Of a DNA stretch of 64,000 nt, positions 31,440 through 51,900 are shown one piece after another. How positions within the stretch are numbered: the stretch's first letter is position 1; every line of letters begins with the position of its first letter. The DNA lies in NCBI GenBank assembly GCA_021234155.1, contig JAJEKV010000039.1, positions 1-64,000 on the forward strand, read 5' to 3'. The position numbers and the translations under genes are program-made. This stretch comes from Isoetes taiwanensis (lineage: Eukaryota > Streptophyta > Lycopodiopsida > Isoetales > Isoetaceae). Under the pieces are notes generated by a model, which was given only the letters and a program-made list of their open reading frames with translations, searched no databases and had not been told where the DNA came from.

Positions 31440-32890
31440 TCACCACTTGGAGTGCCTAGGTGGCATGCTTGAGCCTAGGTGGCATGCTTGAGTCACCTTG
31501 GCATGTTGGAGCCTAGATGGCATGTTGGAGCCAGCGTGGCATGTTGGAGCCACACTGGCATGTTTGAGCCTAGGTGGCATGTTCGAGCCACCTTGGCATG
31601 TTTGAGCCTAGATGGCATGTTGGAGCCACCTTGGCATGTTTGAGCCACCTTGGCATGTTTGAGCCTAGGTGGCATGTTTGAGCCACCTTGTCATGTTGGA
31701 GCCCACATGGCATGTTGGAGCCCACATGGCATGTTGGAACCTATGTGGCATGTTTGAGCCATCTTGGCTTGTTTGCGCCACCTTGGCATGTTCGAGCCAA
31801 GGTGGCATGTTGGAGTCTAGGTGGCATGTTTGAGCCTAGGTGGCATGTTGGAGCCACCTTGCCACGTTTGAGCCAACTTGGCATGTTGGAGCCTAGGTGG
31901 CATGTTGGAGCCAGCGTGGCATGTTTGAGCCACCTTTGCATGTTGAAGCCTAGGTGGCATGTTTTTGCCACCTTGGCATGTTGGAGCCCACGTGGCATTA
32001 AGGAGTCCATGTGGCATGTTTGAGCCTCCTTGGCATGTTGGAGCCTAGGTGGCATGTTTGAGCCCCCATCTTGGCATGTTTGAGCCACCTGCATGTTTGA
32101 GCCTAGGTGGCATGTTGGAGCCTAGGTGCCATGTTGGAGCCCACGTGGCATTATGGGAGTCCACGTGGCATGTTTGATCCACCTTGGCATATTGGAGTCT
32201 AGGTGGCATGTTGGAGCCTAGATGGCATGTTTGAGCCACCTTTGGCATGTTTGAGCCACCCGGCATGTTTGAGCCTAGGTGGCATGTTGGAGCTTTCCTT
32301 GGCATGTTGGAGCCCACGTGGCATTCTGAGTCCACGTGGCATGTTTGACCCACCTTGGCATGTTGGAGCCACCTTGGCATATAAGAGCCTAGGTGGCATG
32401 TTTGAGCCGGTGGCATGTTTGGCCCGCCTTGGCATGTTGGAGCCTTAGGTGGCATGTTGGGGGTAGGTGGCATATTGGAGTCTAGGTGGCATGTTGGATT
32501 TTATGTGGCGTGTTAGAGCCTAGGTGGCATGTTGGAGCTCGAGGTGGCATGGTTGAGCCACCTTGGCATGTTGGAGCCCACATGGCATGTTTGAGCCACC
32601 TTGGCATGTTTGAGCCTAGGTGGCATGTTTGAGCCAAGCCTAGGTGACATGTTGGAGCCCACGTGGCATGTTTGAACCACCTTGGCATGTTGGAGCCCAT
32701 GTGGCATGTTTGAGCCACCTTGGCATGTTAGAGCCTAGGTGGATTGTTAGAGCCTAGGTAGCATGTTAGAGCCATGGTGGCATGTTGGATAGGTGGCATG
32801 TTGGAGCCTAGGTGGCATGTTTGAGCCACCTTGGCATGTTTGAGCCTAGGTGGCATGTTGGAGCCACCTTGGTGGCATGTTTGAGCCAAG
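31440..32890 (-). repeat. 19-bp minisatellite array, right arm (inverted)
   Basis: The same unit as the left array, in reverse complement (GAGCCACCTTGGCATGTTT, GAGCCTAGGTGGCATGTTG). It is shorter than the left arm (about 1.45 kb against 2.4 kb) and more irregular, so the two arms have evolved separately in copy number. Confidence 0.95.
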
Positions 32891-33242: not shown

Positions 33243-33453
<211 letters not shown>

Positions 33454-33779: not shown

Positions 33780-34135
33780 TTAGAAAAACCTCCTTAAAAA
33801 CATTACTTATAAACCGCACCTCCAAATACTACACCTCCTTAGAAACATCACCACCTCAAAAGAAAAAACCATAGTTCCTTTAACAAAAAACATACCTCCT
33901 TAAAAAACCACACGTCCTAAAAGCAAAGACCACAGCTTCTTAAAAAAAAAACTACACTTACTTATAAACCACACCTTCAAAAACTACACCTCCTTAAAAA
34001 CACCACTACCTCAAAAGAAAAAACCACAGTTCCTTTAACAAAAAACATACCTCCTTAAAAAACCACAAGTCCTAAAAAACAAAAACCACAGCTCCTTAAA
34101 AAAATAACAGTGGACGTTCCTTGTCCACTTAAAAA
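33780..34135. repeat. A-rich tandem duplication, ~155-bp unit
   Basis: A block beginning ACTTATAAACC recurs at 33805 and 33960, followed in both by CACC...ACTACACCTCCTTA and CTCAAAAGAAAAAACCA. Within each unit the word ACCTCCTTAAAAA is itself repeated at 30-40 bp spacing. No coding potential. Confidence 0.85.
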
Positions 34136-34151
34136 ACAACACCGTTAGTTA

Positions 34152-35160
34152 CTAAAACCACACCTCCACAGATCTACATGTTGAAATCTCTGAATAAAGA
34201 ACATGTGGACCTAAGAAAACTATACTTTTCAACAGTGGACCAAAACGCGGGGTGAGTGTGAAGATTAATCCACCACCACATCCAACCCTGGTTAGCAGCA
34301 GGATTAGGATGACAATTGTAGATATCTTGGAGCTTGGGCATAAAGTCATTTTGATCAAGAAGGCTAACATTCAGCGTAAAAAAGGATTTTCTTTTATTTT
34401 GATCAGCACCACTTAAAATAATTAATTGAGGGTAGTGGTCGGAAAGGGTATAGCCAGCTAAATTCTCCACCCTGCTACTAATGGTCCAAAAATTTTCACT
34501 AAGGTAGAATCTATCATGAAGACAGCAAATGGGATCAGCTCTATGATCTGACCAGCTGAAAGCATTAGGCTTGGTCTTAGCTAGCTTAAGATTATGAGCA
34601 TAGAGAAGACCGACCCAAGCATTCATCTCTTGAGGAAGAAGGGCTCTAAAATTTCTATTTTTCATAAAGCAGTCAGTTACCATATTGAAATCACCATCTC
34701 GAAAAAATTGGATGGTTAGGGCGCAGAATACTTAGAGGCGTATCAACTCTGTTTTTCTCTTGAAGATCAGCGAGGCTGGAAGGCATGGAGCCCTTCATAC
34801 TCGATCCTAAAGCTTGTGTTAGGCCGATTTGTGCCTTGATTTCAGCTTTGATACAAGAAGGTTTTTTTTGCTGGAGCATTGCCGCTGTTTTCAGGTTCTT
34901 TCCTTCACGCATCAAATGTCAAGGTAAGGCTTGGTCTTCCGTTAGCAGTTAGTGATACGAAGTAGATGGGCTAGAGCTAGTGTTAGCAGGGATTTTGTGG
35001 CTAGTGCTAGTGGTTTCATGAGGAAAATCAGAACATGATCTTTCAGTTTGGATAGTTCATAGATCTTAAGCTTTAGAGGCATAGGCATGGATCCTTCTTC
35101 CAAGTTGCACTCATTGCAACCCTGAAGGTCATTTCTTTTGTGGTTCTGCACTCATTGCAG
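34152..35160 (-). pseudogene. L1-type LINE remnant (ORF1 tail joined to 3' part of endonuclease)
   Basis: The minus frame 34174-34683 starts at GDFNMVTDCFMK and continues with FSWSDHRADPICCLHDRFY and SDHYPQLII, the C-terminal half of the L1 apurinic-type endonuclease (GDFN, WS...IDR-L, SDH). Upstream (34691-34915) the frame ending TPLSILRPNHPIFSR resembles the ORF1 end at 54679-54930. The N-terminal half of the endonuclease is missing between them, so this copy has an internal deletion. Confidence 0.8.
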
Positions 35161-36084
35161 AAATGGATACAGGCTTAGTTGCTCTAAGTTATTTGGTTGG
35201 TTTATGACATAGTATAGTGCTCCAGGCTTCTGTGTTGTTTGTTATGGTATTTCTTATGAGGCAGTTCTGAAGCCCCTCCTATCCCAGCTAGGGGAGACTT
35301 TGGAATAATGAAAGGTAAGCATGGATTCTTCCAGAATGATGCTAGGGATTTGCAATGGGGCTTTTTGGACGGGAGACCAAGGAGGCCTAACAGCTGATCA
35401 GGGCTTATTGGGGTTTGGACTTATGCCTTAGGTAGCAGGAAAAAGATTGGCATGTGGACCACTCCATTTGGAGGAGGCCTATAGGGACTGCATATTGCTT
35501 GGAAGATGGGTGACTACTCCATAGTACATTTTGGAAATGGGGTGCAGAAGCCCTTTAGTACTGCAGTATGGATCATCTCTGGTCGGAGGAATTTTTTTTT
35601 AGGTTTTTTCAAATCATGTTTTTGGGGTTTTTATGGAATATTCTATAATATTCCTTGCATGCATTGGATAAACTGAATTGGTAATTGGGATTCAAAAACG
35701 AACCAACTTCAAAAATATACTTTGTATGCATAAAAGACAAACATCAAAACAAATATACATATAAGGACTTGAAGTAGATATGACAAGAAAATATGACTTG
35801 AAGTAGATATAAGGACTTGAAGCAGAAAGATTGTTATACTTTAATGTCAACAAAATTACTCGAGAAAACATAATGTAGGTCATGTATTCTCAAGTGCCTC
35901 ATCGTCTACGTAAAGACATCGCCGTCTTCTTTTTTGTTGCTTTTCAATACTTGGTAGTAAAGACATAAAAGATGCATTTTGCTCAGCATATACTGGCAGG
36001 AAACTGCAACACAGGACAAACACACTACATCAGTATACGACATGAGAATAATTAAGACAAAAGGTAGAAGTTGTGGCTCACTAA
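35161..36084. other. No gene recognised
   Basis: AT-rich DNA with only short open frames. A short direct repeat of GGACTTGAAGTAGATAT occurs around 35765-35820. The last ~60 bp are presumably the 3' untranslated region of the minus-strand ParB-methyltransferase gene. Confidence 0.5.
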
Positions 36085-39000
36085 CTAATCAGCTGGCTCT
36101 TCAAGCACATCCACTTCAATATCAGCATCTTCATCCAAATCCAGGAGGTCAGTAGAACTTCTTTCAGCTGAAGGTTTCTTGAACATGGACATGCGATGTG
36201 TTTTGATCACATCACAAATGTCAACGTCAATATCCAGTGCAAAACAATGCAGACCTCTAAGTGCACATGCCTCAACCATAGATCCTGTGCCTGTTAGAAG
36301 ATCAACAACATAGTCACCAGGTTCACATAAGAGCTGAAGCAAGAATTCATTGAAGTGAGTGCTCTTCTCCAAGTTATGCCGCATGGACTCATGAGTAGCA
36401 GTTTTGAATCTGTCACTTGACCCTAAGTAATGCCTCAACAATTCAGAGTTGTGATTCAACTCGTGTTTATTAAACACGTCATCTGATTTGAATGATGGAT
36501 TTGTTCCAACTCGTTTGTATAGGCATACTTTCAAGGCCATCCTAGAAATAGTACCATACTTATCTTTGTGGAAACTGAATGGTGCATCTCCTATCATGAT
36601 GTAGGTTCTTCCTATTTCAAGGTTCTTTTTTCTGGCGGCTACGTCAATTGCTTTCTGAAACTCGAAGCTGCCAATGCACACCAACCATCCACTATCGTCC
36701 AAGCAAAGCTCACCCAAAGTGAAGCATCCATCTATCAAATGTGAATCAAGTTTGTTCCAGTGGGGTGTTTCATTCATGTCTTTTTTTGTAGGTTCATTGG
36801 TGGGTAGATCAATGAGAACCATGTTTGCACCCCAATCTCTCACTTTCCCATTCCTGCTATACACTGATTTTTTCTTAACTTCTTTTCCCAAGTTTCTCAT
36901 AGACGTGAAAACCTCATGTCCGCCCGTGGAGATGGCTCGTGAAACCTTACAAACATCAGCCTCAATGACACGAGATTCTCTTGGAATTAGTGCAATACCG
37001 GCCTTTGGCATGCGGGGTGGCGTGTGGTAATCTTCCAAAGTGTCTTCTTCTTCTTTATCAGAAACTTCAACAACTTTTAAATCGGACACTGTTGGCTTTC
37101 CTTTCTTACTTCTTTTTCTCCTATCAGCATCACCAAGTTCATCAACTTCATCTACCTTCCTTTTCTGGACCCCTCTAATTTTATTATAATCCTCCTCCTC
37201 TTCTTCAGGATAAGAGCCAATGGGGAAGTCCAACCACCAAGGACAATTCTCCCTTTCCCATTTATGCATGCCACCAACTCGATCAAGATTTCCCTTTGGA
37301 CTATAAATACAGTCACTGCCTGTTTGAGACACCCAAATATGTATCTGGGGATGCAAGGATTCCATGCACTTAATATGTACCAAGTATTTGAAATACCTGT
37401 AAGCTACGCGCATGCCCGTCCTTTGAATTTCAAATGCTTCAGAAACGCCCACTGAAGAAGACATGTGTTTCTCCCAATGTTTAAACATTTGAACCCGATT
37501 CTTAGCTTTGAACGTTCTGAACCATGTCTCAACATCACAATCACGAGGTATTAGCAACTGTAAATTATGTTGCTCAATGGCCCCATTCACCAACTCACAG
37601 GTTCTAAACAAGAGATGCTCTAACCATGTTTCTTTTTTGATCCAAGTACTGAAACTCTTGTCACTGGTAGGGATTTTTTGGTAAGTACCAAACTGAGAAG
37701 TGCTGGTCATAGTCTTTATCCAATTGTCTCTGACATTGTTCTGCACTTTAGACCTGACCATGAACAAAAGCTTCTCAAGGGTCACATTGACTCCCTTGGA
37801 TTCCAAATCCTTGGTTGTAACATGGCGTAACCAGACATTCCCCAAACTAGGATTCACAATGGCTAAGTACTTCTGCATTTTTTTCGTCCATTTTCTGCGT
37901 ACTTCTTTTTCTGCATTGGCCTTCAATACCTCAACATCGGAGATGTTATCATGGTTAGACTTAATGTAATCTTCAATGTCCTTATTCATTGAAGCCTTCA
38001 TCCATGCAATTTAAAACAAACAAATAAGTATTGAATTCGAACATTACATTGGAAAGATAATAGCGCAAATTAATGTCAAACTTACATTGTATAAAATCTT
38101 AGTGTAGGCCAACCGTGTGAGAGGGTACCAAGGCTCATTTGAACCAATCATTTCCCTTGTTCTTTGTGCCTTCAACTCTACAGGAGATAGATCTTTCATG
38201 TATTTATCGGGTTTAGCAGTAGCAACCCTATGCACTATCATAAGAGTATCTTGAAGACTTGTTCGCACAACCCCAATCTCGTTTAATCTAGTTTGCAATG
38301 GTGAAAGTGAGTTGTAATAACATGCAACAACATGATAAATTTATGAAAAAAAAAAGATCACTTACAAGTTTATTCTGTTCATTGCAGCAATCAAAGTTGT
38401 CTCATTTGGCTCATCAATGACAATAAAATCAGCACGAACAGAAATATGCTTCGACTTGATGTGTTTGTATGTGGCCTTGATTTCAGTCATCCAAGCTTCT
38501 GTTCGATGATTTCCGTCCCAACAGAGGAACATAATGCCTTGTAGATCTGACCAATCTGGATTGTTCAATAGGGACTCTTCAAATGCCTTATTTACTTCTT
38601 GCCAGTAAGGGTCCCAACCATCGATGTCCTCATCGGTAACCGGAATTACATCTCCCTTTGCTGTTGCCATGGACAAAATAAAATTTCCCTTCGATTTTAC
38701 ATATCCATCCCATGCGAAAGTTTCTCTCAACACTTGTGCACGGGAACCAACTTTGCGAACTTCTTCATTTATTTTTATACGACATAATGGTATCAATGGT
38801 GGCTCAGTGCCCCTTTTTAATGCCAAACCATCTAATGTCTCCGATATAACCTCAACAGTAAATTCAGCCGAAAGATCACCTAGATCATCTTCATTCGAAT
38901 CTGACTTCTTTCCCTTCTTCTTATTAACACTATTTGGGGTTGCCTCTCCTTTTTCATCATCACTAATTTCTGCCTTCTCTTCATGAACATTTTCTGAACT

Positions 39001-39195
39001 GCCACCCAATTCCATTTCACTACTTGCTATTCTTTCCGACACATTACCTTCATTGTTAGTCAACTCTGCTACAGTAACTACTTCCCCACTAACATCAGTT
39101 GTCATTGCCAATTTCCGCCCTCTAGGTTTTCTTTTTGGAGTTACCAATCTAGTAGGCTGCAAATCGGGATGACTGCTTCTCGTTTCTACCACCAT
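36085..39195 (-). CDS. ParB-like domain fused to a beta-class amino-methyltransferase-like domain; three exons, 980 aa model
   Basis: Model: exons 39195-38366, 38287-38086 and 37995-36085 (2943 nt including stop), joined by GTAAGT donors and AG acceptors with matching phases (2, then 0). Introns are 78 and 90 nt. Residues 21-28 (KRKPRGRK) are NLS-like; 50-112 are acidic/low complexity. Residues about 133-280 read as a ParB/Srx-like domain with LCWDGNHRTEAW (225-235; GxHRxxA-type box) and a later AAMNRIN. The C-terminus has methyltransferase blocks in beta-class order: VLIDLPT (738-743, motif IV position, normally D/N/S-PP-Y/W), DSGWLVCIGSFE, RHNLEKS (883-889), then PGDYVVDLLTGTGS (903-916, motif I, usually VLDPFxGxGT) and ALDID. 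ParB-plus-N4/N6-methyltransferase fusions are typical of phages and bacteria. The changed motif IV argues against normal catalysis. An upstream in-frame ATG at 39336 would add a hydrophobic stretch; MVVETRSS at 39195 is preferred. The exons are intact, unlike the neighbours. Confidence 0.75.
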
Positions 39196-39276
39196 ACCAT
39201 AAGTGTAACTGCGAAGACACAATAGCAAACATATCAGGGACACAATAGCAAACATATCAGCTTCTGAGAGCAAAGC

Positions 39277-40020
39277 TTCTATTTTGCCATTATAGAGTAA
39301 TGGCAGAAGCTCATAAGATGTGGCAGTGTTTAACATAATTTTTGCAGCATGAATGGGGGCGGCGCCGCCCCCTTCCCAGCATCAAACAGAGCCAGCAAGA
39401 CATTTTATAGACAGGAATTTTATAGCATTCCGAAGCTGAATTTGGAGCTTCTACAAAGCAAGAACTAGAAGTACTGATCAACAAAGCATCTACTACAAGT
39501 ATTGTTCAGAGCAAAGGTTCTTATTTGCCATTGTAGAACAATGGCAAAAGCTCATAAGCTATCAAAGATAGCAAACTGAATACATGGTGTAATGCTTCAA
39601 CAAAGACTTGAAGGGAACTTGAACAAAGTGAAGAGGAGCTTTGTTCAATCACATACTTGAAGGGGACGGCGCCGCCCCCTTAGCAGCATCAACAATGATG
39701 GATTATCAGAATTTACGGAAGAGGATCAACATCAGACTTCAAGGGAATTTGAACAAATTTTTAAACCTAAACTATGCAAAAAGAACAAAGCTTCTGAACT
39801 TGAGCGAAGCTTCTGAGAACAAAGCTTCTGAACTTGAGCGAAGCTTTTGAGAACAAAGACTCCCGCCATTATAGAACAACGGCAGAAGCTAATGGATTTG
39901 GCAGTGTTTAACATAATTTTTAAACCTATACTTTGCAAAAACAACAAGCCATTTCAGCGCAGCTTCAAGGGGACGGCGCCGCCCCCATTGTAGCATCAGA
40001 AAGCTTGCAGGGAACTAAGA
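39277..40020. repeat. Three diverged ~305-bp repeats each carrying a GGCGCC-centred GC palindrome
   Basis: GGGGCGGCGCCGCCCCC-type palindromes occur at about 39357, 39664 and 39973. Each copy also has a form of GCCATTATAGAACAATGGCAGAAGCT, and two share GGCAGTGTTTAACATAATTTTT. The repeats lie between the divergent ParB-methyltransferase and SWIM genes, where a shared promoter would be. E2F-like factors bind GGCGCC-type sites, but no binding is shown here. Confidence 0.8.
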
Positions 40021-40634
40021 ATGAACAAGCAAATACTTACATCTTCTGCCCGACGAAGCCGCATTCTGCATTTCCGACGAAGCTTGCCAATTTTTTTGAA
40101 GCTAGCAGGAGGAGAGGAGAGGTTTCTAGAAAATACAGTACTTCAAACGCAGGCGGACTTCAAACGCACAATTCAATTTCATTACGAAGACTATTTCTTC
40201 ATTCTAAAACGCACATTTCAATTTAATTTCTAAGACTAGTTCTTCATTCTAAAACTAATACATAGAATTTTAAATTGAATATGGTTTAAAGGGTTTACCT
40301 CGCACAAGCAAGCGGTCTCCTAAGCATTCGTTTAGCATTCGTACATTTTGCAGCCAGTCCCTTACTAGTTAAAAAGTAGCCGTTTCAAATTAGTTTTCTA
40401 ATAGCCGTTTGTATTTGATTTTTGATTGCACGTTAATTAGACTTGCGCTTGTTATGATGACCATTTCAATTAAGGGTAGAATATAATTTAATGCAGTATT
40501 ACGAAAAATAAGTTGGCGGGTAACGAATATTTCCGTTTATTGCGGCTTTCATGGAGTGAAATGTTTGTAATTCAAAATAAAAGACGAATGTCCAACAAAT
40601 AGTGTGCGTTCACGGAACTCACCAGAATTGGAAA

Positions 40635-41099
40635 ATGGCCGCTACGGTAAGCATGACTTCTCCAGGTAAGTTGCAATCTATGCAATTACCTTTTGATGCT
40701 AATGGAGTTTGTATTGTCAGTAACCATCTGGTTTCACAATGTTTTGGCTTCCAACCTGGTACTGTGATGTTGCAACAAGTGTCGGTAGATAGTGATGTGG
40801 ATTCCTTGACATATGTTCTGAAGCGAAACAGTGATGGATTCTATGTAATTGATAGAGAGTTTGGTTCACGTGTAATCGTGACTGGTATCCCTGAGATTAT
40901 CAGTTCTCCAGCATGCCCCATAGTTGTGGACTCACCTAAGTGTATGGAATCCAATGTAACAGAAATGTCCATGTTCGATTATTTGCTCAATAATGGTGGC
41001 AATAGCAAATTGAAGACTTGGGCACTAGAGGTTGGAACATCTGTGAGGGTGAACCATTTGCCAGATTGTTATGATGGCACTGTGGTTTATGAACTCTGA
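40635..41099 (+). CDS. First reading frame of a SWIM-type gene (unknown N-terminal domain)
   Basis: The ATG at 40635 (MAATVSMTSPGK) is preferred to 40602. It opens a 154-codon frame ending YDGTVVYEL-stop. No known domain; it contains alternating hydrophobic segments (GVCIVSNHLVSQCFGF, SRVIVTGIPEIISS). It overlaps the next frame by 29 nt in a different phase, so the two are either one gene with an indel, a spliced gene with an unseen junction, or two overlapping ORFs. The start lies about 1.4 kb from the divergent ParB-methyltransferase gene. Confidence 0.55.
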   Translation: MAATVSMTSPGKLQSMQLPFDANGVCIVSNHLVSQCFGFQPGTVMLQQVSVDSDVDSLTYVLKRNSDGFYVIDREFGSRVIVTGIPEIISSPACPIVVDSPKCMESNVTEMSMFDYLLNNGGNSKLKTWALEVGTSVRVNHLPDCYDGTVVYEL

Positions 41100-41988
41100 A
41101 GCAGGAAGTCATCGACCAGACAAGGTATCCTGCACTATGTCACGTTCGCGAATGGCTGACTCCGCGAGAAGGACAATAGACTTTGATCATCCACAACTTA
41201 GAGTGATAGAAGTAGATATCCATCAGGCTAGTTGGGCATTACGGAGGACAATTGCAGGCAGTGACGTGAAATGTATGGGTAGAGTATCCAAGACTGGTCG
41301 CAAATGCCAAACACGCATTAACGTGGGGAACAAATCCACTGTTGCTCCATCATTCTATGGAATCAGAAAACATCGAAATGGGGAGCAAGAACAAATGATG
41401 TGGTTTTGTTCAACCAATGTTCAGCACACATGGTATCCAGATTACAGTATTGTTTGTGTTCCTAACAGACCCAGCAGTTGGCCAGTCGCCATTGGAGTCA
41501 ACATAAAGGATGATGAATTACAAGTGTTAATGAGTAGTGGCTTTGAAGTGAGAGGGTTGTCTTCCACATGTGGGCAGTATTCCACTGAAACTTCTTCAAA
41601 TGTACCTTCAGACAGTAGCACTATCAGAGTTAGAAATGGAAGACGTGTCAATAAAAGGGCTAGATTAAGCAATGATGAAGATGTGAACCTGGAGCGTAGT
41701 TTTGACATGGAAGCAGAGGTAATTAGTAAACATACTATCAGTCGGGGAAAGCATGTGATTTATGACCTTAGAAGGGATACGAACACATACAAGATTGAGG
41801 TGAGCACAAACCCGAAATGCAATTGTCCTGAATTTACAAACATGAGACGAAGGGTAGATTCCCCGCTATGCAAGCACATGTGTTATGTCTACAACAAGGT
41901 GTTGGGTCATAATCCGAAACACAACAAGGAGGTGATTCAAGCAGTGTTAACAGATGCTACATTGGCAATGCTTTTGGGAGATGATTGA
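41071..41988 (+). CDS. SWIM zinc-finger protein (C-terminal part)
   Basis: A 305-codon frame without stops. The C-terminus reads YKIEVSTNPKCNCPEF...SPLCKHMCYVYNKVL, which fits the SWIM pattern CxCx(n)CxH, a zinc-binding fold found in MULE-type transposases, FAR1-like factors and DNA-interaction proteins. A second Cys-containing block (KCMGRVSKTGRKCQTRI) lies near residue 70. The middle has an NLS-like RRVNKRAR. The first ~15 codons are probably not translated as given, because upstream coding sequence lies in another phase. No transposase core was seen, so the call is SWIM protein of unknown role. Confidence 0.7.
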   Translation: MMALWFMNSEAGSHRPDKVSCTMSRSRMADSARRTIDFDHPQLRVIEVDIHQASWALRRTIAGSDVKCMGRVSKTGRKCQTRINVGNKSTVAPSFYGIRKHRNGEQEQMMWFCSTNVQHTWYPDYSIVCVPNRPSSWPVAIGVNIKDDELQVLMSSGFEVRGLSSTCGQYSTETSSNVPSDSSTIRVRNGRRVNKRARLSNDEDVNLERSFDMEAEVISKHTISRGKHVIYDLRRDTNTYKIEVSTNPKCNCPEFTNMRRRVDSPLCKHMCYVYNKVLGHNPKHNKEVIQAVLTDATLAMLLGDD

Positions 41989-42533
41989 AAATTACAGAAT
42001 GTTGCATTCAGTATTAGTAAATGACAATGAGAAGTATTGTAAAATTCTTTCTAAGTGATAGTTGTATTGAATAGATTGGTATTAAAGGTTACATTGGGTT
42101 GTTATAAGAAATACAAAAGGTTGCACCAATCCGAGTTGTTTTTCAACAATATAACCAAAACTATCACTTCCACCTGAAAGCATATTCGAATATTACTCAC
42201 AAAAAAACATGAAAACATCTTTTGAAAAAACATAAAAAAAATTACACTCTCTCTGGTCAAGTTAACGCGCGGGAAGATACTTGTCTTTTCTTTCTTCTGT
42301 TTAACTAAGGTATCTATCGGTGGGGAGCTTCAAGTTGTCCATGCTTCAATAATCAGTGGGATCTCTATGTAGCCAAGATGGTGTGAAAGCATGCAGCTGG
42401 AATTTGTTCCAAGTTTGGGCTCACTATTGTGCTACTTCTTCCTATGAGGCCATTTGGGCCACTTTGTAATAAGGCCTTCGGGCCACTTTTTATTAATAGA
42501 AAATCATAAATTTCGTACCCTCAAAAAAAAATA
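41989..42533 (+). other. 3' flank of the SWIM gene and probable retroposon 3' end
   Basis: After the stop codon come AT-rich DNA and, at about 42320-42530, a sequence with repeated GGCCACTTT words (GGCCATTTGGGCCACTTT, CCTTCGGGCCACTTTT) followed by an A-rich end (CTCAAAAAAAAA). This resembles the 3' end of a polyadenylated retroposon in plus sense. No reading frame was found. Confidence 0.4.
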
Positions 42534-42534
42534 T

Positions 42535-42720
42535 TGAAATCACCTCCAATAATCAAATCATCAACATTTAAACTTGCTAAGCTAGAGTTAATCTTATTCC
42601 AGACTAGAATTCTATCAGAAGGATTATGATAAGAGTAGATATTAACTAGGGCAACGAAGCACAATTTCATTAAAATGAGAAATTTCGTGATTCCAATTAG
42701 GAACGAAAATCCTTTTTAGT
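42535..42720 (-). pseudogene. L1-type LINE endonuclease fragment
   Basis: The minus frame reads LVNIYSYHNPSDRILVW, then NSSLASLNVDDLIIGGDFNI, matching the (N-V/I-Y...)(GGDFN) part of the L1 endonuclease. About 60 codons survive. It sits head-to-tail against the A-rich end at 42519-42529. Confidence 0.8.
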
Positions 42721-42984
42721 CCATTTTATGCCAATTTTTTGAGCAATTATGGCGCCATTTAGAAAAAATATGGCTCTAAAACGTCATTTATTGGCGCCAT
42801 TAAAAATACTAAGAGTGCATATAATGAAGCTAAAGAACCACAACATCACAAAATTAGTTAAAAATTCCAAATTCATAGATTTGCATATCAAAAAATTTGC
42901 CACAACAGGCACGGACTCGAAAGAGAGAGTTTGTTTACAAAAGGATTATTGTACAATTTAAATTACAATCACACAAAATTCAGG

Positions 42985-43045
42985 GTTCCGCATCAGGATC
43001 AGCTTCCACATCAGGATCAGCTTCCGCATCAGGATCAGGTTCCGT
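42985..43045 (-). repeat. 18-bp in-frame repeat at the C-terminus of the second ParB-like gene
   Basis: GCATCAGGATCAGCTTCC and variants occur three times in tandem and encode a repeated DPDAEA hexapeptide on the minus strand. As an 18-nt unit it keeps the frame, which is what one sees in translated sequence. Confidence 0.8.
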
Positions 43046-44633
43046 ATTGCCAGGGCCATGGCTAGAAGAAGCAACCATAGGATCTCCCTGAAAGCTCTCG
43101 AATGCTGTGGCAGTGAAATTGGGATCATTAAGAACGTCCAGATCGAATTGAGTGTTCTTGATCAAATCATAGTCCACATCGGCTGGAACTTCGGGCATCT
43201 CTGGATTAGGTGGATCTACAGCTTCTTCAACAACAAAGACCTTTTGTCTCTCAGAGGGAACCGGCCGATGATAGGATTGATGGCGGTCAAGCCTATCAAG
43301 AATCCCCTTAGGCACTCCCCGCTTAACCGGGTCACTTTCGAACACAATGCAAAATCTCTTATTCATCAATGAAGCCCTACCAAAAGAACCACGGAGAAGT
43401 AATCAAACACCCTGTTCTGGCGGTACCATTTTTCTCGCGACGGTAGGAGCATGTTGCGCCCCCACCGGTTTCTCATGATTATGTCCCCTGGCAAGCCTTG
43501 CCAGCTGTACCTGAATCTGCTGTTGCAGAGCTTTCCTGCCATAGACTCGGTCTCCACCTCTTCGTCTTCTTCGTTAGGCAAAGGAACTGGTGGTAGTTCT
43601 TGAGGATGATCGTTGAAGGGGAATTTGAGGTCAATTTCATCATCAGGATGACCTGCAGTGGCCTGAATTTTTGTGGCGTACATTAGTGCTTGGACCTCCC
43701 CGAACTCTGGGGAGCCGGTTTTTTGTATTAGCCCCTCATACGTGCCAATAAAAACTCTGGATCTGGAATCCAGATCATCCAACACAGACGAAATCAAAAA
43801 GTTATGCTCTGGCCTTGCAAACACCACTATCCAGAAAGAATCAGCTGTGGTGTTCTTTACAGCTGTATTAAAAAAATTAGATAGTGTGGTTTTGTCCCAC
43901 ATTGGAAATATGCCTCTAGTGTCCAGGGCAATCAAGGATGCTTTGATGAGTGCAAACAACTTGCCCTGGCATGCGTCGGTTCAACCCATAGCGGAAGTCT
44001 TGATATCCTCTCTCTGCAAGACAAAGTTATGTATGAATCTTGCCAAGGCTGGTGGCACGTTCTGCCTTCGCCTTCCTTGCCCACTCCGGTTTCAACCCAC
44101 TTACTATGCAAGGTGGCCATGGAAATGAGGTCGGTATCCTCGAAGCCCCAAGACGGCAAAAGATCGAGATCGGTGAAGGATTTGACCTTCCTCGGAAAAT
44201 TATCCTTCACGTATTCAAAAATCTCCTTCTTCAAGAAAGATATGGATCTTAGTGTCTTTGCCCTTGCCTTGAAGAATTGCTTACCCAGATAATCACCGGT
44301 GACCTTGGCGAAGGTCTTTCCATCCAAAGACTTCACGGAACAAAACCCGACAGCCGTCTTAGTGATGAGACCCCTCATGCACCTCGTAGGTCCGGACCGA
44401 AGTAGTCATGATCTTTTGCCCAGTTACAAGTAATAGTTTGTCCCTTGTTATCTTGCAGCTTGCAAGATTTCCACAAGTTCCATAGGGACATGAATAACTG
44501 AAAAATATCCTCTGGCATGAAGACCCACTGGTTGAAATCTTTTGGATGCTTACCACGCATGGTAACTTCAGCCAGAGCCAGATAACGCTGGAAACAACAA
44601 GAAGTTAGCCTTTCAGACATTCAATGAGGAAAA

Positions 44634-44730
44634 AGCGCCATGGCGCCATTTAGTGAAGAAATGGCGCCATTTAATGAGCAAATGGCGCCACGGCGCCATT
44701 TCCTCACGAAATGGCGCCACGGCGCCATTT
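44634..44730. repeat. GGCGCC palindrome cluster inside an intron
   Basis: AATGGCGCCATT and AATGGCGCCACGGCGCCATT units occur about four times in 97 bp, wholly inside the 173-nt intron (44760-44588) of the second ParB-like gene. The same words recur at 46570-47250 and 48605-48940. Confidence 0.9.
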
Positions 44731-45599
44731 GCTAATCTTGCCAACAATTACAATATGTACCTTGTATGGTTCTGAGCGTGACTGCCCGCGTCCCGATGGA
44801 TCAGGCTTCCCGCACAGAGCATATTGTTGCCGCAGGTGCGCTATGTTATCAATGAAAGGCTCTTTGAAAATAGTCTTCGCAGTGATATCATTGACTTCAC
44901 AACTGAGCTGCAGGCATTCCTGTTCGTTGACTGTGCCAGATAACACTCGGCAATTCCGTTGAAGATAAATCTTTGACATTTGTTCTTGGGACTTTGCAGT
45001 GCCGAGTCTTCTACATACAAGCTGAGCAGCCATAACTGAATGATTGCCATTCACTATATAATAGTGCATCCCCATGAGGTCATCCTCGGTTTTCCAAGCG
45101 ACCAGTTTGTTTGTGAGGGGATTGATTGGAATCACATCAGCGGGAGTGAACACTGGATGTGGGTCTCTCTGAAAGGACTCCACTAACGTTTTGACGTGCT
45201 CCATATTCCTTGGTCTGGATGTCAGATTTGCTGGCCCTTGATATAGTTTGAACACCTCTATTTTTTTTGTAAATGTGACACCCAGAGGAAACAGATGCCG
45301 GTGATCGTAAATTTTATTCAGTGTATTCTCTGCCGTCTTTTCCTCTTCTGACCTTTCGACCTTAAGATTTGCAGGCACCTCTAGCAAGTGCTGAGCTATT
45401 CTTAGTGTGAGCTTCTTTGGCTCTGGCTTCTTAATGGGGGGACCCTTTTGGCCGGTGTGTCCGCAAGATCCTGGCTATGCCTTGGGCTCGGAGGTTCACC
45501 ACCACTTCTAGGACTTCCAGCAGGACTAGGTGTCCGAGTCGCTCTCCTTTGTTTTTTAGGTGTCCTATCCTTCTCAGAGGTCTCCAGCCCGTGCTTCTT

Positions 45600-48989: not shown

Positions 48990-51900
48990 CGACTTCCTTG
49001 ATTGAAACAGGTTCAATTTTCCCCTGTACAACCTATTCGTCGGAAGGACAATTGTTGCCCGGGGACATATTTTGAATAGAACCACTCTTCATGGGAAGGA
49101 AATAGATCCTTCAAATGTAGCTATTGAGGTCCGCGGAGTCAGGATCCCATCGACAGAACTTCGGTCCCTGGGGAGGTGCGAGATAACATTGGTGAAGCAA
49201 AAGGGCACATTCATTCAATGGCCTAAGAGGGATGTAAAACAAAATGAGTGGCCCTCAAGTGAAGATACGTCTTCGAGATCCCTCAATTTGCCCTCTTCAC
49301 AAGAGGATTCATCTAGTAGTCCACCATCTGTCCAAGCCCGCCCGGACATCAGTTTCAATTGCTCACTTTGGGAGAACAAAGCAACAAATGAACAAATGAA
49401 GAAGGATAGATAGTAGAGATTGGAGGTCATGAGAATCTAGCTGCCCGTCTTGGTCTCGGGTTGTTTAAGCACGAAGATGAGACAGTCTACTACTCCAGAA
49501 CAGATCTACTAGGTTTGCCATGCTACATTCTTCATTCCTGCCTTGGATCTAAATATTCGGAGGCGAATATAGTCTTTAGTGATCCTCAGGATGCTATAGA
49601 CGATGAGTTCTTGGGTGTATCAAAGGTCGGGCTTTCGATGGGTAACATAATAGATCCAACGGGAAACCAAAATATCAGGTCATGTCATGCTTGTGCTGAG
49701 AGGCCTATAGCTAACAGTCTAGTAACCTGGGAGACCCATTATGTTTTGCTTCATGATGGTAGGACAGTTTCACAACATTTACAAGCTCGAGCTGCTCTCG
49801 AACAGGATGACTTAGAAGTTGAGTGCTTGGAAGCTGATGTTGAGAAGCAATTCAAGAGGAAAAGGAAATATACATATGTGAAGAGGGTCGGGGAGGGAAC
49901 CAAAGGGGATAGGAAGGAAGAGAGGATGTGCGCTTCCAAGTCAATCAAGAGTGCTCTAAAATCAACATCATGCCGCAGGGCAGAATGTGTCAAAAAACTG
50001 ACCCGAGAGCAATTATGTGCCTTAAGAAAAGAATTTTATTCTCAATCAAGCAGTGCCATTATTACGCTTGTTTTTGATGTGTTGAGTGTAACTTATATAG
50101 GGCAGTCGGAGGCGAAAGTAGTGGTCTCCGGAGTGGAGGTCTTTACATCAATTAGCATGGCGCGTGGCTTTAGGAGTTGCTTTCGTCACGTTTTATAGTT
50201 GGAGGAAGAGGTTCGAGTTAGGTGGAAACGCCGAGCATGGTATCTGAGGCTCTAAGAAGCCTAGATCTGTGACACTAGCTACAGAAAAGTGTGCTTGATA
50301 CCTTCATTAGTGAGAATGCGGGAGAGCATTCCACATAGAAGCAAAAAAGGGAAGGATGATATAAGGGAGAATGTTCAAAAACTTCCTTCCATTCTTAATA
50401 AGAAGAGCATACATAAGGAAGTGGGTGCCGTGGTGGAAGAATTGACGGAAAGAGTGTAACCTTGCCCTCTTTTTACAATATTTGGAAGAAGGAGTTTCAG
50501 GGCGTCGGCATAGCAAAAAATACAAAGATTCTCCAAGTGTAACATATGTGTAGTCATCAAGCGGAAATTGGAAAGAACAAAAGATACAAGGGAGGGCGTA
50601 ACCTTTCAATTCAACGGCGGGCACATATGTTGGAACAACGTTCTGTAGGAGTCAATATTGGCATTGGCGTGCATTATCACATCGTTCGCCCGAAAAGTCA
50701 CCTTTGCATAATACATGATAAGATGGATCAGGTCAAAACACTCACACCAAGAAGTCACCATCTACGCAAAGTCTGTTTGGAGAGGGAGATCGCTTGAAGC
50801 AGCGACTTGACAGAGCACCGACACATGGTCATGGTGGGCCGGGCTTATGGTCATTTCTCTCTTGATCTTTGGAAGGATGACTCAAACTTTCATGTTGGAT
50901 CACTTTCTAGGATCCTACACTATCTTGAGTTGCTTAGGAAGAAGACAAGTGTGGTAATCTATGTGGAAGCGTAAACTACAGATTGCAAATTGATGCAAGC
51001 CCTAAAAAGATACTCGACCACTTCATAAGCTAAGCGGAGACACAGAGAAGATGCCTTCATCTTCTAGTGCCAACTTAGAAGGCTTCAATCCTCTTCCTCG
51101 AAATCTCTACTTACAGTTTGGATAATGCATCGGGTCAAAATAAAAATAGATATGTGTTCTCCTACCTCTCTTATTTGACATGGCTTAAGGTATTGATGAG
51201 ATTCGGGTTGGCTTCATGATGGTTGGGCATACTCATGGCGATATTGATGCATTGTTAAGGGAACTTTTTCGGCGTTAATGAGTTCATCGGATGCTCTAAC
51301 TTTGCACGAGTTGCTTTACTTGTTTAGCAAGTGCAATGCAAAGTCTCTGTTCCATATTTTGTGGATGAAGTTCCAGTTGGAAAGGCTTTGCCAAGGGATA
51401 TATCCCGATAAAGGCCAACGTCTAACGAGGCCATACCGACCCATTGCTATTCGATTTAAAATGGATGGGAAATGGCCCATTATGCAATATAAGATCGCGG
51501 CCAACCCATAAAGAGTGGATTCGAGAAAAAGGAATAAGAATGTGGAAGGAGGATGAAAATGGTGAGCCAACGTTACCAGCGGGGTGCCTAAAATATCCCT
51601 CCAAGGAAGACATTGAAAGATCTCCCGGCACGGCGACGGCATCAGCAAGTACATAGCATTATGGAATTCCTTATGCAAAAATCAAGAAGATAGTGTGTTT
51701 GCACGACAGTACAAAGCAACTATGGATTACTGGAACGAGATTCTTGTGTGTTTGGAAGATGTATCTCCCGGACGACCTCAAAATGATAACTTTTGGTTGC
51801 GTACAAGGCAAGAACCTCTACAAGCTGCATTTACTCCGGTCGATGAAGCCGCTGTGCTTGTAAGACCTTTGCCTACGTATTGTGGGCCAGCAGATGGGCG

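Follow-up and report, generated by a model that had tools for sequence, protein, structure and literature searches.

The window analysed here, a stretch of 64,000 nucleotides of Isoetes taiwanensis contig JAJEKV010000039.1, carries a gene of three exons on the minus strand, with its ATG at 39195 and its stop codon at 36085 (Table 1). It shares a DNA transposon copy with a transposase gene, from which it diverges across a central spacer, and is referred to below as the accessory gene. The sequence-only reading of this DNA had already arrived at three exons with fitting phases, and the intron phases are indeed compatible across the gene; the 980 codons then given become a protein of 981 residues in our count. 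Likewise, the motifs WDGNHRTEA, DLPT(N), LEKS and VVDLLTGTGS are all present, in the order that had been described. The splice signals are shared by sister copies, in which GT donors and AG acceptors fall at identical codons wherever residue patterns located the exon ends, the exception being L029, where exon 2 ends without GT at that codon. In distant subfamilies an apparent extra intron, read by eye, lies at the R/YF junction that is internal to exon 3 of the window.

Table 1. Features of the transposon copy in the window, and related elements for which both ends were available.
Feature	Position	Strand	Remarks
DNA transposon copy (window element)	35585..42249	.	6665 bp; inverted ends and perfect 9-bp target-site duplication TCTCTGGTC
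Left target-site duplication	35576..35584	.	TCTCTGGTC
Left terminal region	35585..35654	+	starts GGAGGAATTTTTTTTTAGG; common to sister copies; imperfect inverted repeat with right end
Exon 3	36085..37995	-	conserved N-terminal part, acidic linker, methyltransferase-like part
Methyltransferase-like region	36088..36975	-	296 aa
Motif I VVDLLTGTGS	36280..36309	-	SAM-binding loop
Altered motif IV DLPTN	36796..36810	-	
Intron 2	37996..38085	-	90 nt
Exon 2	38086..38287	-	
Intron 1	38288..38362	-	75 nt
Exon 1	38363..39195	-	bears conserved WDGNHRT(E/D)AW box; ParB resemblance limited to a short motif
WDGNHRTEA box	38494..38520	-	in exon 1
Central spacer between divergent genes	39200..40634	.	
Transposase gene, N-terminal part	40635..41096	+	start codon placed by eye
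Transposase C-terminal frame	41053..41985	+	SWIM-like CxC..CxH, by eye; middle missing in window copy
Right terminal region	42188..42249	-	ends TTACACTC
Right target-site duplication	42250..42258	.	TCTCTGGTC
C996 element			target-site duplication ATAGAAACT; 5258 bp
C907 element			target-site duplication TTAAATGAA; 8100 bp
C1044 element	at 4.25 Mb		target-site duplication ATGTTGCAA; 8230 bp

The boundaries of the transposon copy are well defined. Its left end, at about 35585–35592, is common to sister copies, and its two termini form an imperfect inverted repeat of 40 nt with 83% identity. Exhaustive comparison revealed a perfect 9-bp target-site duplication in all four elements for which both ends were available, a one-base shift of the duplication fitting equally well in two of them. 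The elements start with GGAGGAAT, GGGGGAAT or GGGAAAT and end with CACTC. Typical Mutator ends are longer than the 40-nt inverted repeat of the window element. The 9 bp found in four out of four elements nevertheless lie within the 8–11 bp expected of target-site duplications of MULEs, and terminal inverted repeats, the other hallmark, are present, albeit imperfect, with ends common to sister copies. Indeed, 9-bp duplications are given for several Mutator groups in a published account (PMC6446971).

The transposase gene of the window is represented by its N-terminal part and a C-terminal frame. Longer copies keep the middle of the protein, with residues that by eye resemble those of a DDE transposase; since this middle is missing from the window, the copy found there is devoid of the probable catalytic region. 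Three further copies (L010, L025 and L013), which resemble the window in the transposase stretch, seemingly lack parts of the middle too. The CxC..CxH pattern was read by eye in the transposases of the window and of the C907 element and is not accompanied by a Pfam SWIM match, and PF10551 (MULE domain) matched neither the separate transposase exons nor one joined pair. Because these Pfam models fail, ‘Mutator-like’ is used here as a structural label that refers to the length of the duplication, the ends and the motifs recognised by eye. Elsewhere in the assembly, PF10551 was detected at no fewer than 150 places (at least), so that ordinary Mutator-like elements abound beside the family that carries the accessory gene.

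The accessory gene belongs to a large family. When the own assembly of the plant (1.66 Gb, 1110 contigs) was searched with exon 3, at least 91 matches were obtained, many of them interrupted by stops and some forming a distant group near 35% identity. A distant member, L030, used as a query against the same assembly, gave at least 106 matches in several clades, and merging both searches yielded at least 121 accessory loci, a lower bound, as only the highest-ranking candidates are scored in such searches. The gene had previously been singled out as the lone intact long gene of the window and taken for a transferred host gene that gained introns. As to the former, the two longest open frames in the window do belong to its exons, but at least 121 such loci exist and this one lies in a transposon; the latter is not borne out, the gene being transposon-borne and multi-copy, and a single host gene is ruled out by the multiple matches in the own-genome search.

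Pairing between the two genes was counted from all 91 and 106 accessory matches and from the 108 transposase matches among those listed, merged into at least 121 accessory and at least 98 transposase loci. Among the matches listed, a transposase locus was located within 6 kb of 39 of the 121 accessory loci, the two being separated by a median of about 3 kb and divergently oriented in every one of the 39 cases; within 20 kb, a transposase locus accompanied 49 of the 121, with 47 of the 49 divergent. Conversely, half of the transposase loci among the matches listed (49/98) had an accessory locus within 20 kb. The loci without a partner at that distance, 72 of 121 accessory and 49 of 98 transposase loci among the matches listed, may have decayed or been truncated, or may have partners beyond these matches. 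The divergent arrangement extends to distant members of the family, for example those on C1090, C1072, C1041 and C1045.

Purifying selection, which had been proposed for this gene, is evident from comparisons between copies within the assembly. By the method of Nei and Gojobori, with several dS values near saturation, dN/dS for exon 3 was 0.10–0.16 between subfamilies and 0.10–0.55 within them; the corresponding values for exon 1 were 0.10–0.16 (one pair being saturated) and 0.42–0.46, and those for the transposase 0.14–0.22. Two close pairs from distant clades gave 0.29 and 0.31, and three pairs across distant clades gave 0.27 at a saturated dS above 2.4, three more giving no dS. When the protein was divided into parts (three pairs), dN/dS amounted to 0.06–0.07 in the N-terminal region, 0.21–0.32 in the acidic linker and 0.09–0.17 in the methyltransferase-like part. 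The low dN/dS, similar to that of the transposase, implies that the element needs the accessory gene, and the pattern of selection is the one expected of a gene that is required in each transposition cycle and then free to decay. We are nearly certain that the transposon, a Mutator-like element of the cut-and-paste type, has two genes, of which the accessory gene is the long-resident second one. A separate observation concerns synonymous divergence, which is 0.32 between the window transposase (40656–41096, 147 codons) and L011 and 0.74 between exon 3 and L004, located at the same place as L011; the latter value is about twice the former, as if both halves had partly different histories.

The C-terminal third of the accessory protein is, on sequence criteria, beta-class methyltransferase-like, with significant similarity confined to the surroundings of motifs X and I. 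A beta-class assignment of the C-terminal half had been made before, and is now upheld by several kinds of matches. Relative to the PF01555 cut-off of 26.7 bits, L029 (27.3 bits) and L030 (34.8 bits) score above, the window exon (23.7 bits, 5.5e-5) and L008 (17.3 bits, 4.8e-3) score below, and L002 had no match to this model. Methyltransferase families of PHROGs were matched by L030 at 2.2e-9 and by the window at 3.2e-6, and the PDB methyltransferases 9c3u and 8urk were matched by profile at 1e-4. Profile–profile alignment (hhalign) with 23 beta-class enzymes from phages and metagenomes reached a probability of 97.5% (E 6.4e-12) over 61 columns comprising motifs X and I. The half that contains motif IV gave no significant profile alignment, and the best, non-significant register sets D[L/F]PT on DPPY.

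Motif IV itself departs from the canonical (D/N/S)PP(Y/F/W). It reads D[L/F]PTN in 16 of the 17 translated copies and DFSTN in L034, a nine-row alignment shows no variation in the D, P, T or N of DLPTN, and the aromatic position is occupied by T in all 17 copies, which represent fewer independent lineages because several are near-identical siblings. The replacement of motif IV noticed in the earlier reading is thus confirmed, with the addition that the altered form is itself conserved. Most clades have a glycine-rich motif I (FAGTGSM, FAGMGSM, LTGTGSM). In one distant clade (L032, L039, L040, L042 and L043) GSAPM replaces GTGSM, so that the SAM loop of that clade may be altered too. Compared with the enzymes of PF01555 (N6_N4_Mtase; DpnA-like 5hek, 8urk/9c3u), the Isoetes protein shares the order of motif IV followed by motif I and matches in the stretch of motifs X and I, but differs in having D[L/F]PTN, a motif IV half that cannot be aligned significantly and extra N-terminal regions. 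We therefore consider it likely that the protein is methyltransferase-like but non-canonical.

The N-terminal half had been described as ParB-like, and the question deserves attention because the WDGNHRT(E/D)AW box of exon 1 is conserved among copies and the order of elements is, by eye, like that of ParB boxes I and II. The GxHRxxA box that characterizes ParB/Srx proteins is contained in this sequence, although the motif is short. Exon 1 had no significant match in Pfam, PHROGs, NCBIfam or PDB, and PF02195 matched neither exon 1 nor any place across the own assembly. In hhalign comparisons with 27 ParB_N domains (taken from 36 places, the others being without a locus or omitted), exon 1 obtained a probability of 0.4 with a shallow plant profile (Neff 1.7), whereas all 13 held-out true ParB domains exceeded 96. 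Column shuffles scored as high as the match between exon 1 and ParB in 47 of 200 local and 14 of 200 global alignments, the reversed profile outscored the true one, and a ParB model built from the 27 domains gave exon 1 a best E of 0.36. For these reasons exon 1 is not called ParB here. The library searches, shuffles, reversed profile and held-out controls together give no support to a ParB domain, although an extremely remote relationship to the ParB fold is conceivable. In bacteria and mobile elements, ParB domains are found fused to adenine methylases (PMC5512222), with a similar order, the GxHRxxA box standing upstream of the methylase-like part; the Isoetes protein differs from these fusions in having no ParB profile match. 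Thus, the anatomy of the accessory gene as originally read stands, and the unique transferred gene with a ParB domain does not.

The central spacer of the window contains a GC-rich palindrome, GGGG(A/G)CGGCGCCGCCCCC, at 39355, 39662 and 39969, that is, in steps of 307 bp. When 15 spacers were compared, the palindrome (with up to three substitutions) was present in 8 and missing in 7, and GGCGCC occurred two or three times in 11, with 137-bp steps in L011, being absent from the other 4 (L015, L016, L021 and L022). The CpG ratio was 0.77–1.16 in 13 of the 15 spacers and low in L025 (0.49) and L014 (0.35). The ratios of these 13 spacers, as against 0.44–0.66 over all 17 element stretches, and the repeated GC-rich motifs serve as leads for protection of a promoter; the ratios would fit a less methylated spacer or simply a promoter, CpG-rich promoters being ordinary. 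An escape of whole elements from methylation, as judged from CpG, gained no support, the element values standing beside flanks with anything from 0.11 to 0.93.

To our knowledge, few transposon-encoded anti-silencing proteins have been described. The plant case found in the literature searched is VANC, which binds noncoding tandem repeats of Arabidopsis VANDAL elements and removes silent marks (PMC5735166, PMC10398659). By analogy, the accessory protein, which is probably a DNA/SAM-binding protein, may bind the DNA of its own element, either at the central palindromes or at the ends. Its methyltransferase-like part would bind SAM or the target DNA and would either be without the usual N4-cytosine/N6-adenine chemistry or perform it differently. 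The earlier suggestion of a reader or scaffold in place of an enzyme may also hold. The protein would thereby aid propagation of the element, most likely by keeping the central two-way promoter unsilenced, or else by assisting insertion, a role proposed for maize mudrB. Taken as a whole, a transposon accessory gene whose methyltransferase-like, non-canonical product aids propagation of the element is the best explanation at hand, and one towards which we lean. It may further be suggested, tentatively, that we are dealing with a transposon lineage that has long carried a methyltransferase-derived protein with a conserved non-canonical motif, acting either against silencing at the bidirectional promoter or as an unusual enzyme on its own DNA. 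The anti-silencing role in particular, which is modelled on VANC, is rather doubtful.

Pairing with the transposase and similar constraint on the two genes might also point to a cofactor of insertion or transposition with no role in silencing, in which the methyltransferase fold would serve as a platform for binding protein or DNA; mudrB, with which it would be compared, is apparently required for integration (PMC6446971). We regard this proposal, which draws on pairing and constraint, as unlikely. Alternatively, the protein could be an active methyltransferase that modifies N6-adenine or N4-cytosine of the element DNA, with D[L/F]PTN replacing DPPY and a mark that aids transposition or marks self. 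This would be consistent with the four residues of motif IV (D, P, T, N) that are invariant in the nine-row alignment, with the glycine-rich motif I of most clades and with the dN/dS of 0.09–0.17 in the methyltransferase-like part. Some RNA N2-guanine methyltransferases use D-L/M-P-F, which also counts in its favour. The T at the aromatic position of motif IV in 17 of 17 copies and the GSAPM version of motif I in the clade of L032, L039, L040, L042 and L043 argue against it, and make such an enzyme quite improbable.

As for the origin of the gene, neither a bacterial nor a viral donor was found in the protein collection and viral contigs searched, both of which are mostly prokaryotic and viral in content. 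Exon 3 had no homologue among 5.8 billion proteins and the nine-row methyltransferase alignment had 0 matches in the same collection, in searches that require shared 5-residue words, so that a prokaryotic origin gains no support from these two queries. Nor does a viral origin, no relative having been recovered from viral contigs for either part. Phage records matching the methyltransferase part at E up to 1 numbered 415, the best at about 3e-5; phage methylases match about 60 residues near motif I, with 18–29% of that part covered among the matches listed, and we read these matches as generic methylase similarity.

Were this a host gene acquired from bacteria or phages, later furnished with introns and kept for the plant, the length of the open frame, its introns and the selection on it would be accounted for. 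This reading is refuted for the window copy, which sits in a transposon with a target-site duplication, and it is extremely improbable given at least 121 loci, many of them decayed, the pairing with a transposase across close and remote subfamilies alike, and the failure to find a full-length prokaryotic or viral homologue in the collections searched. Although plant Mutator elements often carry pieces of host genes (PMC6446971), a Pack-MULE origin, in which a non-autonomous Mutator element would have captured a host gene recently, is hardly credible for a full-length gene that is under purifying selection and paired with a transposase even in subfamilies only 30–40% identical, and no host parent gene nested in one subfamily was recognised among the own-assembly matches listed. 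Viewed singly, transposon accessory genes resemble transferred host genes, which calls for caution.

The two-gene layout favoured here, in which the transposase gene of a DNA transposon is accompanied by a gene of another kind, is shared with MuDR (mudrA/mudrB) and VANDAL (VANA/VANB/VANC). What differs is that the second gene of the Isoetes element encodes a methyltransferase-like protein. In the literature searched, no title or opening of an abstract was found to describe a Mutator element with a gene of this type. The main text of PMC6446971 uses the word ‘methyltransferase’ 0 times, its table naming SET, OTU and FAR1 among the extra motifs, and the available part of that article has 0 occurrences of terms for lycophytes, ferns, bryophytes, conifers and gymnosperms. 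A further parallel is offered by retrotransposons of dinoflagellates and charophytes, which carry C5 cytosine methyltransferases capable of de novo CG methylation (PMC5890265). Like the Isoetes element, these are mobile elements with a gene of the DNA methyltransferase type; unlike them, the Isoetes element is a DNA transposon, and its protein is beta-class-like, altered in its motifs and predicted from sequence. If the favoured reading is true, the existence of a second, unrelated accessory gene, this one with a methyltransferase fold, would mean that DNA modification domains of bacterial type have been recruited by DNA transposons. The family lends itself to testing: some copies are open, the ends are clear, the promoter is a candidate target, and the catalytic motif, though altered, is under selection.

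Around the element, positions 34000–44000 of the window contained no recognisable RNA families, and two open frames, 44707–45474 on the minus strand (256 aa) and 49410–50195 on the plus strand (262 aa), had no Pfam match at 0.01. Upstream, an unbroken run of the CT dinucleotide (86 copies, 33278–33449) lies beside an AACT run (33244–33279). Positions 32011–32887 are occupied by a degenerate tandem array of about 46 copies of a 19-bp unit, GTGGCATGTTTGAGCCTAC, and an array related to it adjoins copy L012.
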